A DNA stretch of 64,000 bases, taken from assembly GCF_016629525.1 (NCBI RefSeq), contig NZ_AP024269.1:1736001-1800000 (forward strand). The letters run 5' to 3'. The position numbers were made by a program, and so were the translations under genes. This DNA is from Kaistia sp. 32K (GTDB taxonomy: Bacteria > Pseudomonadota > Alphaproteobacteria > Rhizobiales > Kaistiaceae). A model generated the notes under the pieces. It was not told where the DNA came from. It made no database searches and worked only from the letters and a program-made list of their open reading frames with translations. Below, in pieces: positions 40,232-62,603 of the stretch; position 1 is the first letter of the stretch, and each line of letters starts with the position of its first letter.

Positions 40232-40559
40232 TGTTTCGCTCCATGGCGGAGTGAAATGATCTCGGCTGGAAAACAGGTATTCATTCCGACGACATGTTTT
40301 CATGCGGCCGACTGTAGAGGGTTATTGAAGGCCGAGATTAGGGCTCCGGCCGCAGCGCGTATATATATCCGAGGATGTATGGGCGGCCGCCGCCGTTGTG
40401 CCTAAACCTCTCCGGGAGTACGCTGAGCGCTATCGATCGCCGGCAAGGATGACCCGAGACGCGCACTGGATCGAAAGCACGAAAGAGCTCGCCCGCTGGG
40501 GCAAGTCTGGCCTCGGGGCGCGTGCTTCGAGAGCAGGGAGGCCGGCTGTGTCGATCCTG

Positions 40560-43761: not shown

Positions 43762-44967
43762 CTAGGCCGGAACGGCATCCCGCTTCAGAACCGCGTCCGG
43801 CGACAGGCCGACCAGCGTCTCGTAGAGCTTGGGGTCCGTGGCGCCCTCGGTGTTGATGAGGAAGACGCGGGCATCCGGGCCGAGGCCGATCGAGGCGCGC
43901 AGCGCCGGATCGGCCGCAACCCTGACCAGTCCGGCAAGCCCGGCGCCGCCGCTTTCGCCCGCGACGATCGCCGGATCCCCGCCCTTCGGCTGCGCCAGCC
44001 GGTTCATCACGGCGATCGCGTCGCCCTCGTCGACCGTCATGAACGCATCGGCGAGACGCGACAGGATGCGCCACGCGACCATGGACGGCTCGTAGCATTC
44101 GAGCATCGCCATCACCGTCGCCTCGCCATGCGCGACCTTGACCGCGTGGCCGGCGCGGGCGCTTTCGAACAGGCAGGCGGCGCGGGCCGGGTCGACGACG
44201 GTGAAGAACGGGCGGTTCTCGCCGAAGACGATGGAGAAATAGCCCGAGACGGCGGCGGCGACGCCGCCGACGCCGGCCTGCACGAAGACATGCGTCGGCG
44301 GCTCGGGCAGCGCTTCCAGCGCTTCGCGCAGCAGCGCCGTGTAGCCCTGCATGACCAGCCCGGGGATGCGCTCATAGCCGGGCCAGGACGTGTCGGAAAC
44401 GACGGTCCAGCCTTCGGCGGACGCCCGGCGCGAGGCTTCGGCGACGCTGTCGTCGTAATTGCCGTCGACGCGGATCATCTCGGCGCCATAGCGGGCGATG
44501 GCCGCGATCCGCTCGCTGCTGACGCCCGAATGGACGAAGATCGCCGCCCGGGCGCCGACCAATTGCGCGCCTTGCGCGACCGAGCGGCCGTGATTGCCGT
44601 CCGTGGCGCAGGCGACCGTCATCGTGGCGGCGACAGCGCGAACCTCGGACGTCTGCAGTTCCGCGACGTCGACGGTGCGGCCCAGTCGGCGGGACGCTTC
44701 CTCCAGCACCAGCCGGATCACGGCATAGGAGCCGCCGAGCGCCTTGAAGCTGCCGAGCCCCAGCCGCGAGGCCTCGTCCTTGATATGGATGGCGCCGACG
44801 CCGAGCTCCTTGGCGAGGTGGGGCAGGGCGACCAGCGGCGTCGGCCGATGGTTGTCGCGATAGGAGAGGAAGCGCTCGACTTCCCGGGCGGCGTCGACGC
44901 CCAGCGTCTCGGCGTCAACGGCATCGAGCGGCTTTCGATGGTCGGGATGCGTGTTCAGGATGAGCAA
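43762..44967 (-). CDS. Diaminopropionate ammonia-lyase-like PLP enzyme
   Basis: 401 aa, the size of E. coli YgeX/DpaL. The PLP lysine is Lys75 in LGLGSFKALGGSYA, an exact match to the family's motif; CATDGNHGRSVAQGA, GVGGVAAAVSGYF and GESGGAGLAGL are further landmarks. The enzyme converts 2,3-diaminopropionate (or D-serine in some homologues) to pyruvate and ammonia. Start at 44967 gives the family N-terminus. Single gene, divergent from the ABC transporter operon by 805 nt, so a functional link with that operon is possible but not shown; none of the four operator dyads lies close to this start. Confidence 0.88.
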   Translation of the reverse strand: MLILNTHPDHRKPLDAVDAETLGVDAAREVERFLSYRDNHRPTPLVALPHLAKELGVGAIHIKDEASRLGLGSFKALGGSYAVIRLVLEEASRRLGRTVDVAELQTSEVRAVAATMTVACATDGNHGRSVAQGAQLVGARAAIFVHSGVSSERIAAIARYGAEMIRVDGNYDDSVAEASRRASAEGWTVVSDTSWPGYERIPGLVMQGYTALLREALEALPEPPTHVFVQAGVGGVAAAVSGYFSIVFGENRPFFTVVDPARAACLFESARAGHAVKVAHGEATVMAMLECYEPSMVAWRILSRLADAFMTVDEGDAIAVMNRLAQPKGGDPAIVAGESGGAGLAGLVRVAADPALRASIGLGPDARVFLINTEGATDPKLYETLVGLSPDAVLKRDAVPA

Positions 44968-45772
44968 GCTGGTTTACTCCCGAAGCTGAAGAAGGACGAA
45001 TTGGGGCGGTCTGGAGAGAATACCCCAATCATCCCGAGAGATTTCCGTGATTTGCGGGCTCCAGATGCAATTCTGTTTCATATTGGGCGGGATTGATGAG
45101 AGGATCGCTCACGGGGCGATCTTGAGCAACGCGCCTTTGGAAGCCGGCTCGGCGCGGTTCGCGATGAGCGATAGGGGCTTTCGCGAGACCTCGCGGGGCT
45201 TTGCCGAAGGGCGGCCTCGCGTTGGGGCAGGCGCGAGAAAGCGTTGCCGAACAAGGGGCGTGGTGGACCCGACCGCGCCGCCGGCCCGGTCACGGCCCTC
45301 GCCGGGGCAGGGCGTGGGATCGCGACCGTTCAGCCCGCAAACGGCTCACGCGCAGCGGGCGCGGAACCATGCGACGCCAACCAAGCCCGGCTCCCATCCC
45401 GAAACCCAGTCTCATTGTCATTCTAATAATGAGATGATAGAAAGAATAATCAGTCCTGATGGCGGCAAACGTCGCCGGAAGGCCGGAAGTCGTCGTCTTG
45501 AAGCGGGGGGAGACTGCTTCGGGGCGACGTCCGGACGAGCTGCTGAACAGCGGTGGAGGGCGATGGTGAATGGCTGACTCTGTGTAGGGCGACGGCTGCG
45601 CGAGCGTCGTGCAACCCGTGAGCATGTTCATGCAGGCTTTTCCGGCCTCGGCGCGCCCTGCGCCGGCGGAGGCTGTCGTGTCGTGCCGCCGGTTCGTCGG
45701 AACGCTTCCGGAAGCCTTGCTCCACACATTGGGCAGACCAGGATCCAATCGCCATTTGGGTGAGGAACAGTC
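44968..45772. promoter_or_regulatory. 805-nt divergent spacer before the LivHMGF-type operon
   Basis: No supported gene; short frames lack ribosome sites. It carries an 18-bp dyad at 45423-45440 inside an A/T-rich island (about 45415-45460) in otherwise GC-rich sequence, 333 nt before the transporter start. The remaining ~330 nt after the dyad contain no clear hairpin or start, so a long leader is possible. Confidence 0.5.
45423..45440. promoter_or_regulatory. 18-bp dyad operator, site 1 (before the ABC transporter operon)
   Basis: CTAATAATGAGATGATAG; its reverse complement reads CTATCATCTCATTATTAG and aligns with three other sites (49321, 55023, 60867). Outer half-sites CTATCAT and TTATTAG are near-complementary. 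This is the weakest match of the four in its centre. Confidence 0.6.
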
Positions 45773-46645
45773 TTGGATCAGCTATCACAGCATTTAGTCA
45801 ATGCGCTTATCATGGGCGGCACCTATGCTTTGCTAGGCATTGGCCTGACCCTGATATTCGGCATCATGCGTATCGTGAATTTTACGCATGGAGAGCTGTA
45901 TGCGCTCGGCGCATACATGATGTACTTCTTCGCGACCGTGCTGGGGCTGAACTTCTTCGTGGCGATCGCCTTCGCCATCGTGGCCGGCATGGCGGTGGGT
46001 TCGGCGATCGAATTCACGCTGCTCAGGCCCAAACGCGGCGCCGACATCGACACGACCATGCTGCTGATGATCGGCGCCTGGATCGTGATGCAGAATGCCG
46101 AGCACCTGATCTGGGGCGGCATCGCCAAGTCGATCCCGTCGCCATTGCCGGAAGCGCCGCTCGTCATCGGGCCGGTGTCGATCTCCTGGCTGCGCGTCAT
46201 GGTGCTGATCGTCTCGGTCGTGCTGATCGCGGGCACCTATTTCCTCATCAACCGCACCAAGCTCGGCAAGGCGATGCGGGCGACCTTCCAGGACGGCGGC
46301 ACGGCCGCGCTGATGGGCGTCAACGTCAACGCCATCTACACGACCACCTTCGCGCTCGGCTCCGGCCTGGGTGCGGCGGCGGGCGCGCTGCTCGGCCCCG
46401 TCTTCGTCGTCACGCCGACCATGGGCGACCTCGCCTCGCTGAAGGCCTTCGCCATCGTCATCCTGGGCGGCCTCGGCAACATCACCGGAGCTGCGATCGG
46501 CGGCTTCATGCTCGCCGTCGCCGAGGAGATCGGCGCTGGCTACATCTCGTCCGGCTACCGCGACGCCATGGGCTTCCTGATCATCATCATCGTTCTTCTC
46601 TTCAAGCCCACGGGCCTGTTCGCACGTTCGGAGCGCATCGGATGA
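45773..46645 (+). CDS. LivH-type branched-chain amino acid ABC transporter permease
   Basis: 290 aa, about eight membrane segments. ALIMGGTYALLGIGLTLIFGIMRIVNFTHGELYALGAY is the hallmark N-terminus of LivH permeases; GLGAAAGALLGPVF and FAIVILGGLGNITGAAIGGFMLAVAEE follow. TTG 45773 is the start: GAGGAA lies five bases upstream and no ATG is possible before the fold. It forms the inner-membrane pore with the LivM-type protein that overlaps it by four bases. The family transports amino acids, but also urea, amides and aromatic acids. No solute-binding protein gene is next to it. Confidence 0.93.
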   Translation: MDQLSQHLVNALIMGGTYALLGIGLTLIFGIMRIVNFTHGELYALGAYMMYFFATVLGLNFFVAIAFAIVAGMAVGSAIEFTLLRPKRGADIDTTMLLMIGAWIVMQNAEHLIWGGIAKSIPSPLPEAPLVIGPVSISWLRVMVLIVSVVLIAGTYFLINRTKLGKAMRATFQDGGTAALMGVNVNAIYTTTFALGSGLGAAAGALLGPVFVVTPTMGDLASLKAFAIVILGGLGNITGAAIGGFMLAVAEEIGAGYISSGYRDAMGFLIIIIVLLFKPTGLFARSERIG

Positions 46646-47688
46646 AACGACTGCTTCCCTACATCGCCGTCGCGTTCTTTGCCTCGGTGCCGCTCTGGCT
46701 GCAGGACCAGTATTTCCTGCACACCCTGGTCGTGACCGGCATCTTCGTGATCGCCGCCATGAGCCTGAACCTGCTGCTCGGCTATACCGGGCAGCTCAGC
46801 CTCGGCCATGTCGCCTTCTTCGGCATCGGCGCCTATGTCAGCGCGCTCACCTCGCTCGGCTTCAGCGTGGAAATCTTCGGCCTCCAGATCACGCACGAGC
46901 CCTGGCCGGCGGTGGTCGGCGTCCTGTTCGGCACGATCGTGGCCGGGCTCTGCGGCTATGTGATCGGCAAGCTCGCCTTCCGCGTCCGCGGCGCCTATTT
47001 CGTGATCGTCACGATCTCCTTCGCCGAGGTGGTGCGCCTCGTCTCGCTGAACTGGGTCGAGCTCACCAACGGCCCGCTGGCGCTGCCCGGCATCCCGCCG
47101 CTGACGCTCGGCTTCGAGTGGACCGGCTATGCAACGCTTTGGGGCAAGGCGCAGAACTACTACGTCGTGCTCGCGACCATCGTCCTCGCCTATATCCTGA
47201 TCAAGCGGCTGGTCTATTCGCCCTATGGCCGCGCCATGATCGCGCTGCGCGAGAACGAGACCCTCGCCGTCTCGGTCGGCATCAGCGTGACGAAGTACCT
47301 GGTGCTCGCGGCCGTGCTGTCCGGCGCCATGGCCGGCGTCGCCGGCGGCCTCTACGCCCACTACATCCAGATCATAGACCCGATGATCTTCATGTTCCTG
47401 AACACGGTGACGATGGTGATCATGGTGATCACCGGCGGCAAGGGCACGCTCGCCGGGCCGCTGGTCGGCGGCCTGATCTTCGGCATCGCGCCGGTGGTCC
47501 TGCGCTCCTATGTCGGCCCCGAGGTGCAGTGGATCCTCTACGGCCTCCTGATGATCCTCATCGTCTTCGTCCTGCCCGAGGGCATCGTCCCGGCGATCGA
47601 GCGCTGGTTCACCCGCAAGCCCGGCAGCGCCTCGGCCGGCAAGCCGGCCGGCCTCGTCCTTGAATCGAGCAAGGGAGCGCGTTCATGA
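46642..47688 (+). CDS. LivM-type branched-chain amino acid ABC transporter permease
   Basis: 348 aa, about ten membrane segments. AAMSLNLLLGYTGQLSLGHVAFFGIGAYVSAL and FRVRGAYFVIVTISFAEVVRLV are family signatures; ENETLAVSVGISVTKYLVLAAVLSGAMAGVAGGLYAHY is the region that contacts the ATPases (EAA-like). ATG 46642 overlaps the previous stop. A ~20-residue Ala/Gly/Pro cytoplasmic tail ends the protein, overlapping the next ATG. Partner of the LivH-type permease. Confidence 0.94.
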   Translation: MKRLLPYIAVAFFASVPLWLQDQYFLHTLVVTGIFVIAAMSLNLLLGYTGQLSLGHVAFFGIGAYVSALTSLGFSVEIFGLQITHEPWPAVVGVLFGTIVAGLCGYVIGKLAFRVRGAYFVIVTISFAEVVRLVSLNWVELTNGPLALPGIPPLTLGFEWTGYATLWGKAQNYYVVLATIVLAYILIKRLVYSPYGRAMIALRENETLAVSVGISVTKYLVLAAVLSGAMAGVAGGLYAHYIQIIDPMIFMFLNTVTMVIMVITGGKGTLAGPLVGGLIFGIAPVVLRSYVGPEVQWILYGLLMILIVFVLPEGIVPAIERWFTRKPGSASAGKPAGLVLESSKGARS

Positions 47689-48482
47689 CCGTCGCTGCAA
47701 CGAGTTCCCCGCGGCCGATCCTCGCCATCGAGCATGTCGCGGTGCATTTCGGCGGCCTGATCGCCATCTCCGACATGAACTTCGTCGTCAACGAAGGCGA
47801 GCTGGTCAGCCTCATCGGCCCGAACGGCGCCGGCAAGACGACGGCGTTCAACGTGATCACCGGCTTCCTGAAGCCGACCAAAGGGCAGGTGACCTTCAAG
47901 GGGCAGTCGCTGAACGGGCTGAAGCCGCACGAGGTCACCTCGCTCGGCCTCGTCCGCACCTTCCAGCGCACCAGCGTGTTCGAGAAGATCTCGGTCTTCG
48001 ACAACGTGCGGATCGGCCTGCACCGGCGGACCAGCGCGAGCCTCTTCGGCACGATCTTCGGCCTCCCGCGCGAGCGCCGGCAGGAGGCGGCGCTGCGCGA
48101 GGAGGCCTGGGAAATCCTGCGCCTCGTCGGCATCGAGCATCAGGCGGACGAGCTCGGCGGCAGTCTGCCCTATGGCGACCAGCGTCTGCTCGGCGTGGCG
48201 CTGGCGCTGGCCGCCAATCCGTCGGCGCTGCTTCTGGACGAGCCGGTCTCGGGCATGAACGCCTCGGAGACCGGGCGCTTCGTCGCCCTGCTCAACAAGC
48301 TGCGCGCCAACGGCAAGACCATCCTCCTCGTCGAGCACGACATGCCGATGGTGATGGGCGTGTCCGACCGCATCGTGGTGCTCAACTACGGCCGGATCAT
48401 CGCCAACGGCACGCCGAAGGAGATCCAGAACGATCCGGACGTCATCCAGGCTTATCTGGGGCAGGGGGTGAAGCATGCTTGA
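47685..48482 (+). CDS. LivG-type ABC transporter ATP-binding protein
   Basis: 265 aa. Walker A GPNGAGKT (45-52), Q-loop with RTFQRTSVFEKISVFDN, signature GSLPYGDQRLLGVALAL (the LPYGxQR variant normal for LivG), Walker B ALLLDEPVSGMN and H-loop LLVEHDM. ATG 47685 overlaps the permease stop. Together with the next gene it powers uptake. Confidence 0.95.
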   Translation: MTVAATSSPRPILAIEHVAVHFGGLIAISDMNFVVNEGELVSLIGPNGAGKTTAFNVITGFLKPTKGQVTFKGQSLNGLKPHEVTSLGLVRTFQRTSVFEKISVFDNVRIGLHRRTSASLFGTIFGLPRERRQEAALREEAWEILRLVGIEHQADELGGSLPYGDQRLLGVALALAANPSALLLDEPVSGMNASETGRFVALLNKLRANGKTILLVEHDMPMVMGVSDRIVVLNYGRIIANGTPKEIQNDPDVIQAYLGQGVKHA

Positions 48483-49194
48483 GATCTCGAACCTGGTCTG
48501 CCGATACGGCAAGGTCACCGCGCTCAAGGGCATTTCGCTCAAGGTCCCGGCCAAGCAACTCGTGGTGCTGGTCGGCGCCAACGGCGCCGGCAAGAGCACG
48601 ACGCTCCGCGCCATCTCCGGCCTGGTGCCGGCGGCGAGCGGCAGGATCACCTTCGACGGGCAGGACATCACCGGCATGTCGGCGGGACGCATCCTGTCGC
48701 TCGGTATCGCCCATTGCCCGGAGGGGCGGCGCGTCTTCAGCCAGATGACCGTGCTCGAGAACCTCGAGATGGGCTGTTACCTGCGCTCCGACAGCAAGGG
48801 CATCGCCTCGGACCTCGACCACATCTTCGGCCTGTTCCCGCGCCTCGCCGAGCGGCGCAAACAGGTCGCGGGCACGCTGTCGGGCGGCGAACAGCAGATG
48901 CTCGCCATCGGCCGCGCCATGATGTCGAGGCCGAAGCTGATCATGTTCGACGAGCCGTCGCTCGGCCTCGCGCCGAACATCGTCGCGCAGACCTTCGACA
49001 TCATCCAGGGCATCCGCGAATCCGGCACGACGGTGCTGATGGTCGAGCAGAACGCCTATGCCGCGCTCGACATGTGCAACTACGCCTATCTGCTCGAGGC
49101 CGGCACGATGGCGCTGGAAGGGCCGGGCGAGAAGTTGATCAGCGACCCGCATGTGCGCGAGGCCTATCTCGGCGCCGGGCTCGCCCACGCCTGA
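48475..49194 (+). CDS. LivF-type ABC transporter ATP-binding protein
   Basis: 239 aa. Walker A GANGAGKST (34-42), signature LSGGEQQMLAIGRAMM, Walker B LIMFDEPSLGLAP, H-loop LMVEQNA. Its start overlaps the LivG-type gene by eight bases. Last gene of the four-gene permease/ATPase operon; a hairpin at 49228 follows. Confidence 0.95.
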   Translation: MLEISNLVCRYGKVTALKGISLKVPAKQLVVLVGANGAGKSTTLRAISGLVPAASGRITFDGQDITGMSAGRILSLGIAHCPEGRRVFSQMTVLENLEMGCYLRSDSKGIASDLDHIFGLFPRLAERRKQVAGTLSGGEQQMLAIGRAMMSRPKLIMFDEPSLGLAPNIVAQTFDIIQGIRESGTTVLMVEQNAYAALDMCNYAYLLEAGTMALEGPGEKLISDPHVREAYLGAGLAHA

Positions 49195-49227
49195 GGCCGG
49201 GCGCCATCCATTCTCTGCAGCATCCCG

Positions 49228-49256
49228 AAGCCGGTCGCGCCCAGCGCGGCCGGCTT
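49228..49256 (+). terminator. Hairpin terminator after the ABC transporter operon
   Basis: Stem AAGCCGG-CGCGC / GCGCG-CCGGCTT with one T:G wobble in the middle and loop CCA, followed by TGCCGTTT. The T-run is weak, so termination may be partial, which would let transcription run on into the F420 operon. Confidence 0.65.
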
Positions 49257-49320
49257 TGCCGTTTCCGGCCCGCTTTCCGGGCGTCTCGGCCAGCCGGCAG
49301 CCCGCGTGAATAATGTTGTC

Positions 49321-49338
49321 TTATCTTTCTATTGATAG
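49321..49338. promoter_or_regulatory. 18-bp dyad operator, site 2 (before the F420 operon)
   Basis: TTATCTTTCTATTGATAG, in an A/T-rich island 112 nt before npdG. It matches site 4 at 14 of the last 17 positions in the same orientation and shares the TATC...ATAG/TAG arms with all four. Confidence 0.68.
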
Positions 49339-49449
49339 TATGACTCTTACATGGTGAAAGCCGAGGGGATGGGCGCGGGGCTCGCGAGCGAGCCGGGCCC
49401 CGGCCTCCGAAAAGGCAGCCTCAACGCGAGCATTTCAGGCAGGGATCAC

Positions 49450-50115
49450 ATGTCCGATACGTCGAAGCCGGTCATTGGCATCATTGGGGGAACCGGCGAC
49501 CTCGGTTCGGGGCTGGCCAAGTGCTGGGCGGCCGCCGGCTATCGGGTGCTGATCGGCTCGCGCTCGCGCGACAAGGCCGTGGCGCTGGCGCCCGAGCTGG
49601 GTGAGGGCGTCGAGGGCGAGGACAATGTCGGCGCCGCGCGCGCGGCCGATATCGTCATCCTCGCCGTGCCCTTCGCCAGCCATGACGCCACGCTGAACGA
49701 GATCCGCGACGTCGTGCAGGGCAAGATCGTCGTCGACGCCGCCGTGCCGCTGGTGCCGCCCAAGGTCTCGACGGTGCAGCTGCCGGAGGCCGGCTCGGCC
49801 GCGAAGATCGCCCAGGCGATCCTCGGCGAGAATGTCCGCGTCGTCTCCGCCTTCCACAATGTCGGCGCCACCAAGCTGCATGCCGGCGGCAAGATCGATT
49901 GCGACGTGCTGGTGTTCAGCGACGACAAGGACGCGCGCAACGCCGTCATCGAGCTCGCCGGCGCGGTCGCCAATCGCGGCGTCGGCGGCGGTGTGCTCGC
50001 GAATTCGGCGGCGGCCGAGGCGCTGACCTCCGTGCTCATCTGGATCAACCGCACCTACAAGGTGCCGGGCGCCGGCATCGCCATCACCGGTCTCGAAGAC
50101 GCCGTCCGGGCCTGA
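49450..50115 (+). CDS. npdG: NADPH-dependent F420 reductase (F420H2:NADP oxidoreductase)
   Basis: 221 aa. The N-terminal Rossmann fold PVIGIIGGTGDLGSGLAKCWAAAGYRVLIGSRS binds NADP (IGSRS after the second strand fits phosphate recognition). FHNVGATKLHAGG is the F420-side motif of the family (compare archaeal Fno) and the helical end holds ALTSVLIWINRTYKVPGAGIAITGL. ATG 49450 has AGGGA upstream; an in-frame extension to 49351 has no homology. It moves hydride between NADPH and F420, and heads an operon with the F420 biosynthesis genes (four-nt gap to cofE). In an aerobe, reduction of F420 by NADPH is the expected direction. Confidence 0.9.
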   Translation: MSDTSKPVIGIIGGTGDLGSGLAKCWAAAGYRVLIGSRSRDKAVALAPELGEGVEGEDNVGAARAADIVILAVPFASHDATLNEIRDVVQGKIVVDAAVPLVPPKVSTVQLPEAGSAAKIAQAILGENVRVVSAFHNVGATKLHAGGKIDCDVLVFSDDKDARNAVIELAGAVANRGVGGGVLANSAAAEALTSVLIWINRTYKVPGAGIAITGLEDAVRA

Positions 50116-50119
50116 TCCC

Positions 50120-50883
50120 ATGCGCGCGGCGTCCGTTTCCCTGCACCCGCTCGCGGGCGTTCCGCTCGTCGAGCCCGGTGACGATCTGGCGGAGATCCTG
50201 ATCGGGACGCTCCGCGACAACGATCTCGAACTGGTCGACGGCGACATCCTCGTCGTCGCCCAGAAGATCGTCTCGAAGGCGGACGGTCTCTATGTCGATC
50301 TCGACGGCGTCGAGCCCTCGGACAAGGCGCGGGAATTGGCCGGCCAGGTCGGCAAGGATCCGCGCCATGTCGAAGTGGTGCTGCGGGAGGCGGACGAGAT
50401 CGTCAAGGTCGGTCCGCATGTCATCGTCACGGCGCATCGCCTCGGCTTCGTCATGGCGAATTCCGGCATCGACGAGTCGAACATCAGCCACGACAAGGGA
50501 AGTCGTGTCCTGCTCCTGCCGCGCGATCCCGACGGGTCGGCGGCGCTGCTGAAGCAGCGGCTCGACGCGGCCTTCGGCGCGAAAATCGGCGTCGTCATCA
50601 ACGACAGCTTCGGCCGCCCCTGGCGCAACGGCGTCGTCGGCGTCGCGATCGGCGCGGCCGGCGTCTCGTCGCTGGTCGACCGTGTCGGCAGCACCGACCT
50701 GTTCGGCCGCAAGCTGAAGGTCACCGAGATCGCCATGGCCGACGAACTGGCCTCCGCCGCCTCGCTGCTGATGGGGCAGGGCGACGAGGGCATCCCCGCC
50801 GTGCTGGTCCGCGGCGTCCGTTCGCCGGCGCCGGAAACGCCGGCCAAGTCTCTGATCCGCAGTCGCGAGAGGGATATGTTCCG

Positions 50884-50887
<4 letters not shown>
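50120..50887 (+). CDS. cofE: Coenzyme F420-0:L-glutamate ligase CofE
   Basis: 255 aa, the size of stand-alone Cof[20 protein letters not shown] at the start, [28 protein letters not shown] and [19 protein letters not shown] are family landmarks with the GTP/metal site Asp and Glu residues. It adds gamma-linked glutamates to F420-0 using GTP. The C-terminal nitroreductase domain of mycobacterial FbiB is absent. Stop overlaps the cofD start by four bases. Confidence 0.95.
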
Positions 50888-51872
<985 letters not shown>

Positions 51873-51876
<4 letters not shown>

Positions 51877-52553
51877 TCTGGGCGCTCGTTCCCGTCAAAC
51901 GGCTGGAAGCCGCGAAGTCGCGCCTCGCGCCGGTCCTCGACAGCGCGGAGCGCGGGCGGCTCGCCAAGGCGATGCTGCGCGATGTTCTCGATACGCTCCG
52001 CCGAGTCGAAACGCTTGCCGGCATCCTGGTCGTGACGGACGATGCCGAGGTCGCGGCGATCGCGGCTGGCCACGGCGCGACCGTGATCGGCGATCCGCAG
52101 GAGCCGGCGTTCAACGCCGCCGTGCTGCACGGCATGCATTGGCTCGACGCCCGCCAGAAGGCCGGCGCGCTCGTGGTGCCGGGCGACATCCCGCTCGTCA
52201 CCGTCGAGGAGATCGAGGCCGTGCTGGACGCGACGCGCACCAGCCCGGTCGTCATCGTCCCGGCGACGCGCGACGGCGGCACCAACATGCTGGCAATCGC
52301 GCCGCCACTGTTGATGCCGCCCACCTTCGGTCCCGACAGTTTTGCCCGCCACGTCGCCGCCGCGCAGGCGCTTGGTATCACGCCAGCGATCCTGCGGCTC
52401 GAGGGCGCCGGCCACGACGTCGACGTCGCGGCCGACCTCGTCCTCGATACCGGAAGCGCCGCCGCGCCGCGCACGCGCGCCCTCATCCGTCAGCTTCGCG
52501 GCACCCCCGTTCCCGCCGTCGCCGGTTCTTTCAAGGAGGCAGTTTTGCCATGA
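51873..52553 (+). CDS. cofC: CofC guanylyltransferase (phospholactate / PEP / 3-phosphoglycerate)
   Basis: 226 aa, nucleotidyltransferase fold. MIWALVPVKRLEAAKSRLAPVLD begins the protein with the GTP-binding region; VVPGDIPLV and RDGGTNMLAI are conserved CofC motifs, the Asp of PGD binding metal. It activates a C3 phospho-acid with GTP for CofD. Substrate choice between 2-phospholactate, PEP and 3-phosphoglycerate depends on a few pocket residues that I cannot assign by eye. Overlaps cofD and fbiC by four bases each. Confidence 0.92.
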
Positions 52554-54961
52554 GCATCCAGACGCTTCTCGCCGATTTTGCCCATGACCGCCGGCTGACG
52601 CGCGCCGAGGCCCTCGGCCTCGTCGATATGGACGACCTGTCGCCGCTGCTTCGCGCCGCCTCGGCCCGGCGCGACTTCGGCCATGGCGACCAGGTCTCCT
52701 ATTCGCGAAAAGTCTTCATTCCGCTGACGCAGCTCTGCCGCGACGTCTGCCACTACTGCACCTTCGCCCATCCGCCGCGGAAGGGCGAGCGCGCCTTCCT
52801 GACCCGCGAGGAGGTTCTTGCGATCGCTGAGGCTGGCAAGCGCGCGGGCTGCAAGGAGGCGCTGTTCACCCTGGGCGACAAGCCCGAGCTCCGCTACAAG
52901 GCGGCCCGCGACGAACTGGCGGCGCTCGGCCACGAGACGACGATCTCCTATCTCGTCGAGGTCGCGGCCATGGTGCTGAAGGAAACCGGCCTGCTGCCGC
53001 ACGCCAATCCCGGCCTGCTGACTGATGCCGATCTTGACGCGCTGCGTCAGGTCTCGATCTCGCAGGGCATCATGGTCGAGAGCACGTCGGAACGGCTCTG
53101 CGCCAAGGGCGGGGCCCATTACGGCTCGCCGGACAAGCTGCCGGCCGCGCGCCTCGACACCATCCGCCGCGCCGGCGAGCGGGCCGTGCCGTTCACCTCA
53201 GGCATCCTGATCGGCATCGGCGAGACGCGCGAGGAGCGGATCGACTCGCTGCTGGCGCTGCGCGAGCTGAACGACGCGCATGGCCATATCCAGGAGATCA
53301 TCGTCCAGAATTTCCGGCCCAAGGCCGATACCAAGATGGCGGATGTCGAGGCGCCTTCGGAGCAGGATCATCTCTGGACCATTGCGATCGCGCGACTGCT
53401 GTTCGAGCCGGAGATGAACATCCAGGCGCCGCCCAATCTGAGCCCGGGCGCGCTGCCACAGCTGGTCGCGGCCGGCATCAACGATTGGGGCGGCGTGTCG
53501 CCGGTGACGCCGGACCACGTCAATCCGGAAGCCCCGTGGCCGCATGTGCGCGAACTCGCCGCCGCCACCGCCGAGGCCGGCAAGGAGCTGACCGAGCGTC
53601 TTGCCATCTATCCGGCCCACGCGCGACAGCCTTACCGCTGGGTCGATCCGGCGCTCCGGACCGCTCTGTTCAATCTCGTCGATGGCGACGGCTGGCCGCG
53701 CGCCGACAGTTGGTGCCCCGGCCGCGCCGATCCGCTGCCGGCCCGCGACGTTTCTCTGCTCACCGGTGGAGCGCCGGCGCGGATCGATGTCGGGCTCGAG
53801 ATCGTCCTCGACAAGGCGATGGCCGCGCAGAGGTTGTCGGAAAGCGAGATCGTGCGGCTGTTCCGGGCGCGCGGCGATGCCTTCACGGCGGTCTGCCAGG
53901 CGGCCGACGATCTCCGCCGTCGCGTCAATGGCGACATCGTCAGCTATGTCGTCACGCGCAACATCAACTACACCAATGTCTGCTACTACAAGTGCCAGTT
54001 CTGCGCCTTCTCGAAGGGGAAGATGAGCGAGAACCTGCGCGGCCGCCCCTATGATCTGGAGATGGCGGAAGTGGCGCAGCGGGTGCGCGAGGCGGCCGAG
54101 CGTGGCGCCTCCGAGGTCTGCATGCAGGGCGGCATCCACCCGTCCTATACGGGCCAGAAATATCTCGATCTCTGCGCCACGGTGAAATCAGCCGTGCCGG
54201 CCATGCACATGCACGCCTTCTCGCCGCTCGAAGTCTCGCAGGGCGCCAAGACGCTCGGCATCCCGGTCGGCGAATTCCTGCAGCGGCTGAAGGAGGCCGG
54301 CCTCAACACGCTGCCGGGCACAGCGGCGGAGATCCTCGACGACGAGGTGCGGGCGCTGCTCTGCGCCGACAAGGTCAAAACCGACGAGTGGCTCGACGTC
54401 ATGCGCACCGCGCACGGCCTCGGCTTCCGCTCCACCGCGACGATCATGTTCGGCCATATCGAGCGCTATGAGCACTGGGCGCGTCACCTAATCCGGGTCC
54501 GCGATTTGCAGGCCGAGACGGGCGGTTTCACCGAATTCGTGCCGCTGCCCTTCGTCCACATGGAGGCGCCGATCTACCTGAAGGGCAAGTCGCGCCCCGG
54601 CCCGACCTTCCGCGAGACCGTGCTGATGCACGCCGTCGCCCGTCTCGCGCTGCATCCCCACATCACCAACATCCAGACCTCCTGGGTGAAGCTGGGGCCG
54701 GAGGGCGCGCGCCATTGCCTGAACGCCGGCGTCAACGACCTCGGCGGCACGCTGATGGACGAGAGCATCTCGCGCTCGGCCGGCGCCAGCCACGGTCAGG
54801 AGATGACGCCGCAGCGGATGGAGGAGATCATCCGCGCCGCCGGTCGCCTGCCGCGCCAGCGCACCACGCTTTACAGCAATGCGCCGGCGACCCTGCTGGA
54901 GCGGTCCTTCGCCGCCTGCCAACCGGCCCAGGACGCCCCGCAGCCCGCCTACGCCAGCTGA
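52550..54961 (+). CDS. fbiC: Fo synthase, CofG-CofH fusion (FbiC)
   Basis: 803 aa with two radical SAM domains. The CofG half has Cys63/Cys67/Cys70 in TQLCRDVCHYCTF; the CofH half has Cys478/Cys482/Cys485 in NVCYYKCQFCAF. Each binds a 4Fe-4S cluster; together they join tyrosine and 5-amino-6-ribitylaminouracil into the deazaflavin Fo. The fusion is the actinobacterial and bacterial arrangement, whereas archaea have two proteins. ATG 52550 overlaps the cofC stop; an open extension through cofC to 52139 is not coding. Last gene of the F420 operon. Confidence 0.97.
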   Translation: MSIQTLLADFAHDRRLTRAEALGLVDMDDLSPLLRAASARRDFGHGDQVSYSRKVFIPLTQLCRDVCHYCTFAHPPRKGERAFLTREEVLAIAEAGKRAGCKEALFTLGDKPELRYKAARDELAALGHETTISYLVEVAAMVLKETGLLPHANPGLLTDADLDALRQVSISQGIMVESTSERLCAKGGAHYGSPDKLPAARLDTIRRAGERAVPFTSGILIGIGETREERIDSLLALRELNDAHGHIQEIIVQNFRPKADTKMADVEAPSEQDHLWTIAIARLLFEPEMNIQAPPNLSPGALPQLVAAGINDWGGVSPVTPDHVNPEAPWPHVRELAAATAEAGKELTERLAIYPAHARQPYRWVDPALRTALFNLVDGDGWPRADSWCPGRADPLPARDVSLLTGGAPARIDVGLEIVLDKAMAAQRLSESEIVRLFRARGDAFTAVCQAADDLRRRVNGDIVSYVVTRNINYTNVCYYKCQFCAFSKGKMSENLRGRPYDLEMAEVAQRVREAAERGASEVCMQGGIHPSYTGQKYLDLCATVKSAVPAMHMHAFSPLEVSQGAKTLGIPVGEFLQRLKEAGLNTLPGTAAEILDDEVRALLCADKVKTDEWLDVMRTAHGLGFRSTATIMFGHIERYEHWARHLIRVRDLQAETGGFTEFVPLPFVHMEAPIYLKGKSRPGPTFRETVLMHAVARLALHPHITNIQTSWVKLGPEGARHCLNAGVNDLGGTLMDESISRSAGASHGQEMTPQRMEEIIRAAGRLPRQRTTLYSNAPATLLERSFAACQPAQDAPQPAYAS

Positions 54962-55022
54962 GACGCGACCCTTCCACCGCGCCTCGGGCGCAGTGGAATA
55001 TTCACGCCATGGGATAGTAGTA

Positions 55023-55040
55023 CTAACATTAGTATGATAG
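55023..55040. promoter_or_regulatory. 18-bp dyad operator, site 3 (before the PLP/CoA-transferase operon)
   Basis: CTAACATTAGTATGATAG, reverse complement CTATCATACTAATGTTAG. This is the most symmetric of the four: CTATCAT and ATGTTAG arms around ACTA. It lies 54 nt before the first gene; TAGTACTA directly beside it is a further short palindrome. Confidence 0.7.
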
Positions 55041-55093
55041 CCTCTTTTGACCGTCGGCAATGACGGTGAGCAGGGGACGGGGAGCTTTCGGAA

Positions 55094-56596
<1,503 letters not shown>

Positions 56597-56633
56597 CAGA
56601 AGCGGCACTGGCCGCCAGCCTAAGGAGGAGCGT

Positions 56634-57599
56634 GTGCTGAACGCCCAGGTAGAGCCCTATCAGAGGCTCAGGGAGAATCTGTCCCAGCGCGACCGCAGTC
56701 TGCGCGAGAAGGTCATGACCTTGGAGGAGGCCGCCTCCTTCGTGCAGGACGGCATGAAGGTCGGCATCGGCGGCTCCACCATGTCGCGCACGCCGATGGC
56801 GATGATCTGGGAGCTGGTGCGCCAGCGTCGCAGGAACCTGTCCTGCTCGCGGGCCATAACCTCGACGGATGGCGACATCCTGTTCGGCTCCGGTGTCTCC
56901 GACCACATCATCACCAGCTGGTTCGCGCAGGGGATTCTCTGGGGCCTGTCCAAGGTCATGCGGCGCCATGTCGAGCAGGGCCTCGCCCGCTACGAGGAAT
57001 GGAGCCACATGGCGGTCGGCATGCGTTTCCGCGCCGGCGGCATGGGCGTGCCGTTCCTGCCGATCCGCTCGATGCTCGGTTCCGGCGTCATGGATCAGCG
57101 CCCCGAGGCGAAGCCGATCGATTGCCCCTTCACCGGCGAGAAGCTGCTGCTGGTGCCAGCGCTCAATCCCGACGTGGCGTTGATCCACGTCCAGCGTTGC
57201 GACGCCTATGGCAACGCGCAGATCGACGGCCTGCAGTTCATGGACATCGATCTGGCGCTCGCCGCCAACCGCGTGATCCTGACGACGGAGCGCATCGTCT
57301 CCAACGACCAGATCCGCCGCGCGCCCGACCAGACCAAGATCCCGTTCTTCTGCGTCGACGCCGTCGTCGAGGTTCCCTATGGCTCCGCGCCGCACGAATG
57401 CTTCGGCCTCTATGAGCCGATGCTGAAGCACATGGAAGCCTATGTCGGTCAGGTCAATTCCGACCCGGTCGAGGGCATGCGCGACTACCTCGAGCGTTAC
57501 TTCTACGCGCCGAAATCCTGGAACGAATACCTCGCCCTGATCGGCATGGAGGAAGTTCTGGACGCGAGCCGGAAGGGGCGGAGCATCTACAATGACTGA
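56634..57599 (+). CDS. CoA-transferase subunit A (glutaconate CoA-transferase/IpdA-like)
   Basis: 321 aa. The N-terminal MTLEEAASFVQDGMKVGIGGSTMSRTPMAMIWELVRQ holds the GIGG motif of CoA-transferase family I alpha subunits; LNPDVALIHVQRCDAYGNAQIDG and DLALAANRVILTTERIV follow. Start is GTG 56634 behind a strong AAGGAGGAG; a GTG two bases earlier is out of frame. The length and C-terminus (DYLERYFYAPKSWNEYLALIG) place it nearer glutaconate CoA-transferase and the steroid-degradation protein IpdA than to acetoacetate transferases. It works as a heteromer with the next gene, which it overlaps by eight bases. Confidence 0.87.
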   Translation: MLNAQVEPYQRLRENLSQRDRSLREKVMTLEEAASFVQDGMKVGIGGSTMSRTPMAMIWELVRQRRRNLSCSRAITSTDGDILFGSGVSDHIITSWFAQGILWGLSKVMRRHVEQGLARYEEWSHMAVGMRFRAGGMGVPFLPIRSMLGSGVMDQRPEAKPIDCPFTGEKLLLVPALNPDVALIHVQRCDAYGNAQIDGLQFMDIDLALAANRVILTTERIVSNDQIRRAPDQTKIPFFCVDAVVEVPYGSAPHECFGLYEPMLKHMEAYVGQVNSDPVEGMRDYLERYFYAPKSWNEYLALIGMEEVLDASRKGRSIYND

Positions 57600-58359
57600 C
57601 ACGACGCGCTACACCGCCGCCGAAATCCTCGCCATTCTCAGCGCCCGGCAGTTGAAGGACGGGCAGGTGGTCTTCGCCGGCGTCGGCACGCCGCTGCTGG
57701 CCGCGACGCTGGCGCAGCGCCTGCGCTGCCCGGGGCTCACCATCCTGTTCGAGGGCGGTGTCGTCGGCGCCTTCGTCGAGCCCGGCAAGCTGCCGCCCTC
57801 GACCAACGACCAGCGTTGCACCAAGCGCGCCAACATGGTGCTCGGCAGCGCCGACGTGCTGCTGCTGCTGCAGCGCGGCTATGTCGACATCGGCTTCATG
57901 GGCGGCGCCCAGATCGACCAGTTCGGCAATCTGAATTCGTCCTTCATCGGCGATCCCTCAGCGCCGAAGACGCGCCTGCCGGGTACCGGCGGCGGCAACG
58001 ACATCTCGAGCCTCACCAACATGATCGTGGCGATGAAGCACGAGAAGCGCCGCTTCGTCGAGAAGGTCGACTTCATCACTAGCCCCGGCTTCCTCCGCGG
58101 CGGCACCAGCCGCGCCGAGGGCGGACTGCCGGCCGGCGGCATGTTCCGCGTCATCACCGAGCTCGCCGTCTTCGGCTTCGACGATCAGACGCGCCGGATG
58201 AAGGTGCTGGCGCTCAATCCCGGCGTCAGCCGCGAGAATGTGCAGGACAACACCGGCTTCGACCTCGTCTTCGACGAGCAGATCGCGATCACCGAGCCGC
58301 CAACCGAACATGAACTGGAAACGCTCCGGTCGATCGACCCCGAGCGGATGTTCATCTGA
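57592..58359 (+). CDS. CoA-transferase subunit B (glutaconate CoA-transferase/IpdB-like)
   Basis: 255 aa. FAGVGTPLLAATLAQRLRCPGLTILFEGGVVGA contains Glu54, which falls at the position of the catalytic Glu54 of glutaconate CoA-transferase beta subunit; a Glu there argues for a genuine CoA-transfer reaction rather than a ring-cleaving hydrolase. QRGYVDIGFMGGAQIDQFGNLNSS and GTGGGNDISSL are family motifs. Overlaps subunit A by eight bases, so production is coupled. The acid it activates is unknown. Confidence 0.87.
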   Translation: MTDTTRYTAAEILAILSARQLKDGQVVFAGVGTPLLAATLAQRLRCPGLTILFEGGVVGAFVEPGKLPPSTNDQRCTKRANMVLGSADVLLLLQRGYVDIGFMGGAQIDQFGNLNSSFIGDPSAPKTRLPGTGGGNDISSLTNMIVAMKHEKRRFVEKVDFITSPGFLRGGTSRAEGGLPAGGMFRVITELAVFGFDDQTRRMKVLALNPGVSRENVQDNTGFDLVFDEQIAITEPPTEHELETLRSIDPERMFI

Positions 58360-58380
58360 GTTTTCATTGGGAGGAATTCA

Positions 58381-59364
58381 ATGACTATGCTGTCCAAGAC
58401 GTTCGGCATCGCCGCGCGCAACTTCGTCGCGTATCCGAACATGCCCGATGCCCGCGCTCTGGTTGACTATGGCGTCCGCGTCGAGGAACTCGGCTACGAC
58501 TCGGTGTGGGTCTGGGACCACATGCTGCTCGGCGTCGACCCGAACTTCCCGATCATCGACTCGCTGACCGCTCTGACCGGCATCGCCGCCCGCACGACCC
58601 GCATCAAGATGGGCACCGGCATCCTCGTCCTGCCGCTGCGCAACCCGGTCGCGCTCGCCAAGCAGCTCTCGTCGATGGACCAGCTGTCGAACGGCCGCAT
58701 GGTCATGGGCATGGCCGCCGGCTGGTACAAGCGCGAGTTCGACGCCATGAGCCTGCCGTTCGGCAAGCGCGGCAAGATCATGGACCAGAACCTCGAGATC
58801 ATGCGCCGCCTGTGGACCGAAGACCTGGTGACCGGCGACTACAAGATCGAGGACGAAGCCACGGGCGTGCAGCTGAACTACAAGCTGTCGAAGGCGGTGA
58901 TGTATCCCAAGCCCGCGCAGCCGCAGCTGCCGATCCTGATCGGCGGCTATGCCGATGCGGCGCTGAAGCGCGCGGGATCCACCGGCGACGGCTGGCTGAC
59001 CTATTTCTACCGCGCCGAGGACTTCAAGAAGTCGTGGGACAAGGTGCTCGGCTTCGCCAAGGAAGCCGGCAAGGACCCGTCGAAGGTCATGAACGCCTCG
59101 CAGCTCCCGATCATGGTCGGCCCGTCCAAGGAGGCGGTGCATGACGACATGATGGACTGGCTCAACAAGGAATGGGACTTCCCCGAGCACAGCGACTGCA
59201 CCCGCGAAAGCGCCATCATGGGCTCGGTCGACGAGTGCGTCGAGCAGCTCCGCGCTCATATCGACGCCGGCGTCCAGAAGATCATTTTCGTCCCCTACAA
59301 GTACCAGACGGACCAGATCGAGACGATCGCCCGCGAGATCATCCCGCGTCTGAAGACGCTCTGA
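58381..59364 (+). CDS. LLM-class oxidoreductase, presumably F420-dependent
   Basis: 327 aa, (beta/alpha)8 luciferase-like fold. YGVRVEELGYDSVWVWDHMLLG is the typical opening; TRIKMGTGILVLPLRNPVALAKQLSSMDQLSNGRMVMGMAAGW is the core; PQLPILIGGYADAALKRAGSTGDGW is the conserved segment near the phosphate site. Placement in an operon under the same operator as the F420 genes makes F420H2, not FMN, the likely cofactor. Codons are strongly biased to C/G-ending forms, suggesting high expression. GGGAGGAATTCA gives a strong ribosome site 21 nt after the CoA-transferase stop. Confidence 0.88.
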   Translation: MTMLSKTFGIAARNFVAYPNMPDARALVDYGVRVEELGYDSVWVWDHMLLGVDPNFPIIDSLTALTGIAARTTRIKMGTGILVLPLRNPVALAKQLSSMDQLSNGRMVMGMAAGWYKREFDAMSLPFGKRGKIMDQNLEIMRRLWTEDLVTGDYKIEDEATGVQLNYKLSKAVMYPKPAQPQLPILIGGYADAALKRAGSTGDGWLTYFYRAEDFKKSWDKVLGFAKEAGKDPSKVMNASQLPIMVGPSKEAVHDDMMDWLNKEWDFPEHSDCTRESAIMGSVDECVEQLRAHIDAGVQKIIFVPYKYQTDQIETIAREIIPRLKTL

Positions 59365-59456
59365 GCCTCCGAGCTTTGGCCCGCGCCGTCTCCGGAGGGG
59401 AGGCGGCGCGGCCTCTCGCCGCCGAAACACCATCCAGAAGCAATCCGGAACGTCTC

Positions 59457-60740
59457 ATGACCGATCCCAACCGCCAGAAAATCATCGACGCGATCGACGC
59501 CAACCGCGACCCGGCGATCCGCTTCCTGCAGGACATGGTCGCCATTCCGAGCGTCACCGGCGACGAGGCCGCGATCCAGGAGTTCGTCTCCGGCTACATG
59601 ACCGGCATCGGCCTCGACGTCGACATGTGGGAGACGGACTGGGAAGAGCTGAAGAAGCATCCGGGCTACCGTCCGGTCGATCGCGGCTATGAGGGCCGGC
59701 CGAACATCGTCGCCACCCGCAAGGGCACGGGCGGCGGCCGCTCGCTGCTCCTGAACGGCCATACCGACGTCATCCCTGTCGGCAATGGCGAGGGCTGGAG
59801 CGATGATCCGTGGTCGGCCGCCATCAAGGATGGCCGCATCTATGGCCGCGGCTCCTGCGACATGAAGAGCGGCGTCGCCAGCCACATCCTGGCGGTCCAG
59901 TATCTGAAGGAAGCCGGCATCGATCTGAAGGGCGACGTCTACATCAACGTCGTCATCGACGAGGAGGTGTCGGGCCACGGCACGCTCGATACCGTCATCC
60001 GCGGCTACACCGCCGACGCCGGCATCTCGGGCGAGACCAGCGATCTCGCCGTCCAGCCTGCCTGCATCGGTCGCATCTGGTTCCAGATCGACGTGCAGGG
60101 CAAGCCGGCCGGCATCCAGCAGCGCTATATGGGCATCAGCGCCATCGAGCTCGGCAACAAGGTCGTCAAGGCCGTGCAGGAGCTGGAGGATCACCGCGTC
60201 GCGACGGTCAAGCATCCGCTCTATCCGAGCGCGCTCGACTCGCTGCCTTGCATCATCGGCTCGTTCCAGGCCGGTAACTATCCGAGCGCCTTCCCGGCCA
60301 GCGCCGTGCTCAAGGGCAGCATTGGCACCGTGCCGGGCGAGGACCATGAAGGCGTCAAGCAGAGCCTCGTCGACAAGATCGCCGAGATGGCGAAGAACGA
60401 TCCCTGGATGAAGGACCATCCGCCGGTCGTCCGCTTCGTCGGCTATGACGCGCAGGCGTCCGAGATCCCGCGCGACCACGGCATCGTCGAGACGGTGTGC
60501 CGAACCTATACCGAGGTGACGGGCAAGACGCCGGTGATCAGCGGCCGCCAGGGCGCCGCGGATACCCGCTTCCTGAACGAATATGGCCACACGCCGACCG
60601 TGATCTTCGGACCGGGCTCGACGGCGGTCATGCATGCCAATGACGAATATGTCTCGATCGACGATTACCTTACCTCGATCAAGGTGATGGCGCTCAGCAT
60701 CTATGACTGGTGCAATAGCGAGCCGATCGCGAAGGCCTGA
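59457..60740 (+). CDS. M20-family deacylase/peptidase (ArgE/DapE type)
   Basis: 427 aa. Metal-binding motifs of the di-zinc M20 family are present: LLNGHTDVIPVG (His), GRGSCDMKSGVA (bridging Asp) and VIDEEVSGHGT (catalytic Glu pair), with PGSTAVMHANDEYVSID giving the last His. The Gly after DEE is SG rather than the more common GG. It removes an acyl group from, or cleaves an amide in, an amino-acid-like substrate. ATG 59457 is preceded by a 92-nt gap after the LLM gene; longer in-frame extensions overlap that gene. The terminator at 60773 ends the operon. Confidence 0.9.
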   Translation: MTDPNRQKIIDAIDANRDPAIRFLQDMVAIPSVTGDEAAIQEFVSGYMTGIGLDVDMWETDWEELKKHPGYRPVDRGYEGRPNIVATRKGTGGGRSLLLNGHTDVIPVGNGEGWSDDPWSAAIKDGRIYGRGSCDMKSGVASHILAVQYLKEAGIDLKGDVYINVVIDEEVSGHGTLDTVIRGYTADAGISGETSDLAVQPACIGRIWFQIDVQGKPAGIQQRYMGISAIELGNKVVKAVQELEDHRVATVKHPLYPSALDSLPCIIGSFQAGNYPSAFPASAVLKGSIGTVPGEDHEGVKQSLVDKIAEMAKNDPWMKDHPPVVRFVGYDAQASEIPRDHGIVETVCRTYTEVTGKTPVISGRQGAADTRFLNEYGHTPTVIFGPGSTAVMHANDEYVSIDDYLTSIKVMALSIYDWCNSEPIAKA

Positions 60741-60772
60741 CGGCCGCCGACCCGCAGCGGCTCGAGGAGGGG

Positions 60773-60805
60773 AAGAGGCATCGCCTGGCGATGCCTCTTT
60801 TTTTT
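60773..60805 (+). terminator. Rho-independent terminator of the PLP/CoA-transferase/LLM operon
   Basis: A perfect 12-bp stem AAGAGGCATCGC / GCGATGCCTCTT, loop CTG, followed by TTTTTT, 33 nt after the M20 stop. Confidence 0.95.
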
Positions 60806-60866
60806 GCGCGTGACTCGCCCCTGGGTTGCGCCCTGAGGCGGCGAATAATTTCGGCATCAATAGTTT

Positions 60867-60884
60867 CTATCTTACTATAAATAG
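60867..60884. promoter_or_regulatory. 18-bp dyad operator, site 4 (before the transhydrogenase operon)
   Basis: CTATCTTACTATAAATAG, 107 nt before pntAA in an A/T-rich island (60842-60897). Same orientation as site 2; CTAT/ATAG arms are perfect inverted repeats. Confidence 0.68.
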
Positions 60885-60990
60885 GTTGATTATGAATCGC
60901 GTCGGGCGCAGTGTGGGCTCGATGTCAGGGCAAATGACCGTGGGGGCACGCTGTCGGCTCTGCCGTCTTGCCAGTTCAGGAGACGAGGCC

Positions 60991-62130: not shown

Positions 62131-62279
62131 CGCGGCTCGGCGCCCCATCGTCTAGCGCCGCTTCCTTTCATTCCGCACCGGGCGCCGTCGCCCGGAGCAG
62201 CCACCGCGAACCATCGCGGGGGAATGCCTTCCCTTGCGCCGCCGTCGCCGACGGTAGGCCGTCTCTCCGGAGGATCATC

Positions 62280-62603
62280 ATGACGTCCACGGCCGTCATT
62301 CAGCTCTTCGTCTTCGTCCTCGCCGGCTTTGTCGGCTTCCAGGCCATCACCCGCGTGCCGCCGCTGCTGCACACGCCGCTGATGGCCGCCACCAACGCCA
62401 TTTCCGGCATCTCGCTCGTCGCCTCGATCGTGCTCGCCGGCGCCAACCAGAGCGTGCTCAGCACCGTGCTCGGCACCATCGCCGTCGGCTGCGCCATGGC
62501 CAACGTCGTCGGCGGCTTCCTGATCACGGATCGCATGCTCGCCATGTTCGACAAGGCCAAGGCCGCCAAGCAGGAGGAGCGCGCGAGCGCTAGGGTCCAT
62601 TGA
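62280..62603 (+). CDS. pntAB: NAD(P) transhydrogenase subunit alpha 2 (membrane)
   Basis: 107 aa with three to four membrane helices (IQLFVFVLAGFVGFQAI; LMAATNAISGISLVASIVLAG; LGTIAVGCAMANVVGGFLITDRML). VPPLLHTPLMAATNAISGI is the conserved opening of domain II. The 149-nt gap after pntAA holds two GC-rich hairpins (around CCGGGCGCCGTCGCCCGG and CCGCGAACCATCGCGG) that may tune subunit ratios. Ends overlapping pntB by four bases. Confidence 0.95.
   Translation: MTSTAVIQLFVFVLAGFVGFQAITRVPPLLHTPLMAATNAISGISLVASIVLAGANQSVLSTVLGTIAVGCAMANVVGGFLITDRMLAMFDKAKAAKQEERASARVH

Follow-up and report, generated by a model that had tools for sequence, protein, structure and literature searches.

Are the genes for making the cofactor F420 in the soil bacterium Kaistia sp. 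32K controlled together with the import and catabolic genes that surround them, and if so, through which DNA element and by which protein? The locus lies in a 64-kb stretch (the window, bases 1736001-1800000) of the single 5.35-Mb contig of this genome (G000). A sequence-only reading of the window had pointed to an 18-bp A/T-rich imperfect dyad before four adjacent transcription units, which encode an ATP-binding cassette (ABC) importer, F420 synthesis, a set of pyridoxal phosphate (PLP), coenzyme A (CoA)-transferase, LLM and M20 proteins, and the transhydrogenase Pnt, and had proposed that one regulator ties them together. The present analysis showed that one DNA element is common to six adjacent gene sets, which serve import, breakdown, F420 synthesis and NADPH supply. 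With a probability of roughly 0.8, the copies of this element are the operators of one local catabolic regulon, repressed by a GntR/UTRA protein and released by a ligand of its UTRA domain.

The sequences and coordinates of the four proposed sites were correct, letter for letter. The pattern CTATCNTNCTANNNNTAG, with up to two mismatches, gave four matches in the 64-kb window, exactly at these sites, while 100 shuffles gave a mean of 0.41 and a maximum of three matches and never four. The claim that the sites lie in A/T-rich islands was confirmed as well: they occupy four of the eight islands of the window (at least 65% A/T over 40 bp), the other four being located at 14459, 26758, 26845 and 58348. 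The frame and the number of the sites required correction. Alignment of the sites and their flanks showed that the imperfect dyads are real but that the 18-bp frame was off-centre, the symmetric unit being a 20-bp dyad, TCWTnCTA-n4-TAGnWTGA, with an even centre, the half-site TCATnCTA and the consensus TCATACTAATATTAGTATGA. The four units do share the element, but the count was too low, as there are six sites before cluster genes (S1 to S6), two of them beyond the right edge of the window.

A symmetric weight matrix was built from the six cluster sites. In 119 kb these sites occupied ranks 1-6 with scores of 18.8-28.5, followed by the next independent place at 12.7, and in leave-one-out matrices each omitted site was still found within ranks 1-6. 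One simulated 5.35-Mb genome (first-order Markov) contained no matches at 20 or above, one at 18 or above and three at 16 or above. In the 5.35 Mb of Kaistia sp. 32K the 18-bp pattern (W at position 6, up to two mismatches) was found at 16 places, seven of which fell within 74 kb. Two of the seven were new and mark the additional sites, at 1800095 (molybdenum (Mo)-hydroxylase operon) and at 1807675 (minus-strand Peripla_BP_6 gene). The seventh, at 1733845, lies inside an SDR gene, is absent from the best dyads and is probably due to chance. The 20-bp dyad, again with up to two mismatches, occurred at 12 places in the whole genome, half of them the cluster sites S1 to S6 and the other half scattered, and was matched perfectly at S2 and S4 only. 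The earlier statement that there was no clear match elsewhere held true in the window but not strictly in the genome. Many equally good scattered matches, the finding that would have spoken against a shared operator, were not seen.

The PLP protein encoded in the PLP/CoA-transferase/LLM/M20 operon occurred in three of 28 genomes of the family, which are three of the 14 genomes of the genus. The cluster was syntenic in the Kaistia genomes G014 and G020, and all six sites were kept. In the three Kaistia genomes 113 of the 120 site columns were identical (94%) vs 435 of the 948 flank columns (46%); these columns depend on one another, and near-identical strings served to find the orthologous sites. 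The identical columns numbered 18/20 for S1 (flanks 50/158), 19/20 for S2 (62/158), 20/20 for S3 (115/158), S4 (84/158) and S5 (54/158), and 16/20 for S6 (70/158). Raw pattern counts failed to separate the Kaistia genomes, with 16 in each of those with the cluster and 4-27 in those without it; position and score were the only features that did. Among the pattern matches listed, those with zero mismatches were confined to the three cluster genomes.

Conservation before orthologous clusters had been set beforehand as a test of the shared site, and sites were kept in Kaistia and in other genera. For this, 80 loci that hold a relative of the PLP protein were sorted by tblastn, leaving out L070 because of its short flank. 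Eighteen of the 80 also carried CoA-transferase/LLM or F420 genes and 61 were without them; a few of the 61 had Mo, M20 or ammonia-lyase relatives, and one had a weak npdG relative. The scan took in 300 bases upstream of the PLP gene and the first 60 within it, in loci that are related to each other. With the Kaistia-only matrix, a site scoring at least 15.9 was present upstream of the PLP gene in 13/18 cluster loci (12/17 without Kaistia), and none of the 61 other loci reached this value (best 15.6); the threshold, like the value of 16 used for the plasmids and F420 clusters below, was set after the scores were known. Locus L060 fell below it with 14.8. In two further loci, L025 and L031, the PLP gene comes after fbiC, and the dyads occupy other places of the locus.

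Genes with 69-81% identity to this fbiC were present on 12 Sinorhizobium plasmids. The same 12 plasmids encoded the GntR/UTRA protein at 77-81% identity, and otherwise three plasmids had matches to it at about 40% or less. The dyad scan covered five of the 12: S. meliloti R28 pSymA, S. fredii SMH12, GR4, KH46 and KH35c. On R28 pSymA the eight best distinct places scored 17.5-29.0 with the Kaistia-only matrix, against a Markov expectation of 0.06 places at or above 17.5 per 44 kb, and they precede pyrC, ABC, F420, CoA-transferase (two), pnt, Mo and substrate-binding protein genes. The scan of S. fredii SMH12 agreed with this result, and GR4 and KH46 had sites at 16 or above before the units of R28, pyrC excepted. 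On the KH35c pSymA the two CoA-transferase sites were gone and that operon was nearer to fbiC than in GR4 (L155:13066-13203), perhaps a natural promoter deletion that placed the CoA-transferase operon under the F420 promoter. In five F420 clusters of other kinds, the best scores with the same matrix were 15.5 in Agrobacterium rubi, 14.5 in Aromatoleum, 12.5 in Sphingobium, 12.7 in Paraburkholderia and 16.6 in Novosphingobium. The proposal of one regulon of import, F420, catabolic and transhydrogenase units is upheld because the sites are conserved before the same units in orthologous clusters.

The regulator had been expected to be of the TetR, GntR or MarR type. The GntR option is now favoured, and a GntR/UTRA protein encoded outside the window is the best candidate on the grounds of co-occurrence. 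A regulator-family scan covered part of the cluster open reading frames (ORFs), and behind the Mo-hydroxylase genes there were two regulator genes, encoding the GntR/UTRA protein and an AsnC protein. In Kaistia, the GntR/UTRA protein was present in exactly the three cluster genomes of the 14. At E<=1e-55 it was found in 12/17 cluster genomes and in 0/18 genomes that have a PLP homologue but no adjoining F420/CoA-transferase genes; in the latter group G444 had a weak match (32%). In 10 of the 12 genomes its gene was located within 1.5 kb of Mo, diaminopropionate ammonia-lyase, F420 or M20 genes. Outside the 17-genome search, L027 carried the gene and L070 a piece of it. Across a class-wide sample the protein was rare, occurring in 3/385 genomes at E<=1e-45, G000 included. 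A relative with 49% identity precedes Mo-hydroxylase genes in L136 (G087:C16:1-20000), where the best dyad scored 17.9 and the tested F420-cluster genes were not found in those 20 kb.

The GntR/UTRA protein has an N-terminal GntR winged helix-turn-helix (PF00392, 56.6 bits, cut-off 27) and a C-terminal UTRA domain (PF07702, 38.5 bits, cut-off 23.8; 26.3 bits for the S. meliloti protein). Its score of 69.5 bits against the HutC histidine-utilisation repressor equivalog TIGR02018 is below the cut-off of 220, which indicates a HutC-type protein and not HutC itself. The nearest named relatives with solved structures were HutC-type proteins, NagR/YvoA and DasR among them. SdhR and FarR, two further members of the HutC subfamily, have other targets. 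In NagR, Arg38 reads G-5 and Arg48 reads G-4 (PMC4333415; this and the other papers are cited from excerpts). The position of Arg38 was occupied by Glu (10), Val (4) or Gln (1) in 15 aligned cluster regulators and never by Arg, while the position of Arg48 was an invariant Arg. HutC sites usually have the form GT-N4-AC, with SdhR, FarR and NagQ as exceptions (PMC4494728). The dyad consensus is without this core and has AC and GT in reverse order, AC-N8-GT. The candidate is like NagR/YvoA, DasR and HutC in its two domains, in having its own gene among the presumed targets and in the retained Arg48, and it is unlike NagR and HutC in the replaced Arg38 and in a dyad that lacks the usual core. It is also like SdhR and FarR, HutC-type proteins with non-standard operators, and the SdhR site TCTTATGTCTTATATAAGACATAAGA, with its arms TCTTA...TAAGA, bears a likeness to the dyad (PMC4494728), although the dyad differs from the SdhR and FarR sites in sequence and spacing. 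The Arg38 change and the unusual dyad together fit a HutC-family member with re-specified DNA recognition.

In the regulon that we propose, the ligand-free GntR/UTRA dimer would bind the 20-bp dyads and block six promoters, and the UTRA ligand, which may be either the substrate brought in or a compound formed early in its breakdown, would lift the repressor. Induction would then yield the importer with its binding protein, the Mo-hydroxylase and the PLP/CoA-transferase/LLM/M20 enzymes, probably also the divergent diaminopropionate ammonia-lyase, and together with these F420 synthesis with NpdG, and Pnt. Pnt would supply NADPH, NpdG would use it to reduce F420, and F420H2 would serve the LLM enzyme in acting on the substrate. 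This electron route is the natural reading because NpdG and the LLM enzyme both score above curated F420-family cut-offs.

Several observations weigh against this proposal. The six scattered dyads in the genome scored 15.6-21.2, five of them above 16, and are unexplained; one (21.2) outscores S6, where the score ranges overlap. In G020 an off-cluster dyad (G020:C6:267152, L137:2156-2175) scored 24.3, away from the xdhC locus and with no identified target. The loci L023 and L088 were without a site upstream of the PLP gene with the Kaistia-only matrix. Four of the 17 cluster genomes (G412, G417, G423 and G425) had no GntR/UTRA match, and G426 had a weak one only (32%). The expectation that the regulator gene itself would carry the site was borne out in L126 and L027, where a dyad precedes gntR, but not in Kaistia, where none does, and on the R28 pSymA and SMH12 stretches the ten highest-scoring places included none before gntR. 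A simple sigma-70 scan reported no promoter at the four in-window sites, as might be seen for activated promoters, and the AsnC gene is present in the same 3/14 Kaistia genomes as gntR.

The best off-cluster dyad of Kaistia sp. 32K, G000:C1:3095660-3095679 (L133:2161-2180), is the one that scored 21.2 and is followed, after ~200 bp, by an operon of the xdhC/coxI type, which serves the maturation of Mo enzymes. This operon was rejected as a seventh member of the regulon, since the nine other Kaistia genomes with the operon, G014 and G020 included, had no comparable site. The scattered dyad at 4494690 (17.3) precedes an ORF for a solute-binding protein. G014 has an unexplained off-cluster match at G014:C5:229230 (14.0), away from the xdhC locus.

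Sequence does not fix the sign of regulation, and the GntR/UTRA protein, or another regulator, could activate at these sites and not repress. The result of the promoter scan and the distance of S1 from its gene (335 bp) would agree with activation. We consider it unlikely, as NagR, DasR and HutC, its relatives of the HutC type, are known to repress (PMC4333415) and the S2 dyad overlies a promoter-like -35/-10 pair, TTGTCT-17-TATGAC, recognised by eye. Binding of the sites by the neighbouring AsnC/Lrp protein, whose gene adjoins gntR and has the same distribution in Kaistia, is very unlikely: at E<=1e-50 it was found in 2/17 other cluster genomes, compared with 12/17 for GntR at E<=1e-55, and its further neighbours are pipecolate/lysine catabolism genes, a more natural AsnC target. 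It is hardly credible that the units are controlled by the two-component system of the window (histidine kinase 40398-42404, NarL-type regulator 42365-43054), which lies 2.4 kb from S1 and adjoins the cluster in G020 too. In G014 the 40-kb stretch with the cluster keeps all six sites and has no homologue of this system, nor was one found at E<=1e-10 in the PLP-relative loci. The sites are also most improbable as mere A/T-rich promoter elements or chance matches, despite their place in A/T islands before genes and the scattered matches elsewhere, given their two-fold symmetry, their conservation above the flanks, their presence ahead of the corresponding units in other genera and their absence from the five other F420 clusters. 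Repression by the GntR/UTRA protein is the reading that we prefer, and the features on which it draws are collected in Table 1.

Table 1. Dyads, gene units and regulator genes of the cluster; five-digit positions refer to the window, seven-digit positions to the G000 contig.
Feature	Position	Strand	Remarks
S1 dyad TCATTCTAATAATGAGATGA	45418..45437	none	335 bp 5' of ABC permease gene; divergent diaminopropionate ammonia-lyase gene on other side
S2 dyad TCTTTCTATTGATAGTATGA	49324..49343	none	5' of F420 operon; 0 mismatches, score 28.5
S3 dyad TAGTACTAACATTAGTATGA	55018..55037	none	56 bp 5' of PLP/CoA-transferase/LLM/M20 operon
S4 dyad TCTTACTATAAATAGGTTGA	60870..60889	none	5' of pnt operon; 0 mismatches, score 26.0
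S5 dyad TCATTCCAAAAATAAGATGA	G000:C1:1800098-1800117		98 bp beyond window end; 5' of Mo-hydroxylase operon
S6 dyad TCTTGCTGTCTTTAGGATGT	G000:C1:1807678-1807697		5' of ABC binding-protein gene (Peripla_BP_6); weakest of the six
Diaminopropionate ammonia-lyase	43762..44967	-	Divergent from ABC operon across S1; NF006058 521 bits, cut-off 276
Branched-chain-type ABC importer, permeases and two ATPases	45773..49194	+	
F420 operon npdG, cofE, cofD, cofC, fbiC	49351..54961	+	NCBIfam equivalogs, each above cut-off
PLP fold-II protein, CoA-transferase A and B, F420-type LLM oxidoreductase, M20 deacylase	55094..60740	+	
pntA (two genes) and pntB, proton-translocating transhydrogenase	60826..63988	+	
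Mo-hydroxylase operon	1800200-1804643	+	Outside window
GntR/UTRA regulator gene	1804872-1805636	+	Outside window, ~5 kb beyond its end
AsnC regulator gene	G000:C1:1805809-1806327	+	Outside window, next to GntR/UTRA gene
ABC binding protein (Peripla_BP_6)	1806380-1807669	-	Outside window

Among the in-window ABC genes no substrate-binding protein was seen. The LLM oxidoreductase scored 186.3 bits against TIGR03619 (cut-off 166.9). The diaminopropionate ammonia-lyase reached 333 bits against TIGR03528, under the cut-off of 532, and the M20 protein 131.7 bits against the YgeY-type model NF009555, under the cut-off of 321. The region G000:C1:1805809-1810829 borders the cluster and contains the AsnC-type regulator and, beyond the binding-protein gene, a pipecolate/lysine module with an L-piperidine-6-carboxylate dehydrogenase (815 bits, cut-off 730) and an AmaA-like oxidase that is below its cut-off.

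What the pathway breaks down may be a nitrogen heterocycle, for which the likeness to the reductive urate pathway serves as a lead only. Reminiscent of that pathway are the Mo-hydroxylase, the M20 deacylase and the diaminopropionate ammonia-lyase, which in that pathway is of the YgeX type, and on pSymA one Amidohydro_1 enzyme; an F420-type luciferase-family enzyme is described in Chloroflexota clusters in the paper on reductive urate breakdown (PMC12507026). Against the likeness, the M20 protein is under the YgeY cut-off, and the pathway has no fitting step for the CoA-transferase or the PLP protein; no SsnA was identified, though no search aimed at it was made. In Sinorhizobium a PyrC-like amidohydrolase gene (L150:2410-3453) has its own dyad and no PLP protein was found in that stretch, unlike in Kaistia, where the PLP protein is encoded at window positions 55094-56596. 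The two proteins are perhaps alternative steps of one pathway.

In the S. meliloti strains GR4, KH35c and KH46, whose plasmids carry the dyads, the cluster has been described as a 26-kb region of pSymA and tied to nodule competitiveness (PMC8407117). Regulatory-region k-mers were assigned there to Mo-subunit and GntR genes, and a COG2188 GntR gene is listed; the excerpted text of that paper gives no operator, regulon or substrate. Literature searches, in the portions of text that they returned, brought up nothing recognisable as a description of this cluster's operator or its regulon. According to the accessible part of a 2021 review, the question why Proteobacteria make F420 is unanswered, and two Alphaproteobacteria contained only trace F420 (PMC8498797).

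A local HutC-type catabolic regulon is of a known kind; the operator, the changed helix of the regulator and F420 synthesis as a member are new. Tentatively, and with the odds somewhat against so broad a statement, F420 could here be induced and dedicated to one pathway and not serve housekeeping: a HutC-type repressor with a re-specified operator would switch on, together, the synthesis of F420, its supply of NADPH and a reductive route for degrading a nitrogen heterocycle, the last by the Mo-hydroxylase, the F420-dependent LLM enzyme, the hydrolases and the diaminopropionate ammonia-lyase. Such a cassette would move between chromosomes and symbiotic plasmids and give rhizobia a plant- or soil-derived food that aids nodule competition. 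For the pSymA region that PMC8407117 connects with nodule competitiveness, the proposed regulon supplies a candidate regulator and pathway, and it would be a natural example of altered DNA specificity in a HutC-type protein. If the F420 operon is indeed substrate-induced, this would explain low F420 under non-inducing growth, should the two species with trace amounts carry this regulator. The arrangement points to F420 production on demand in such bacteria, tied to a single particular nutrient.

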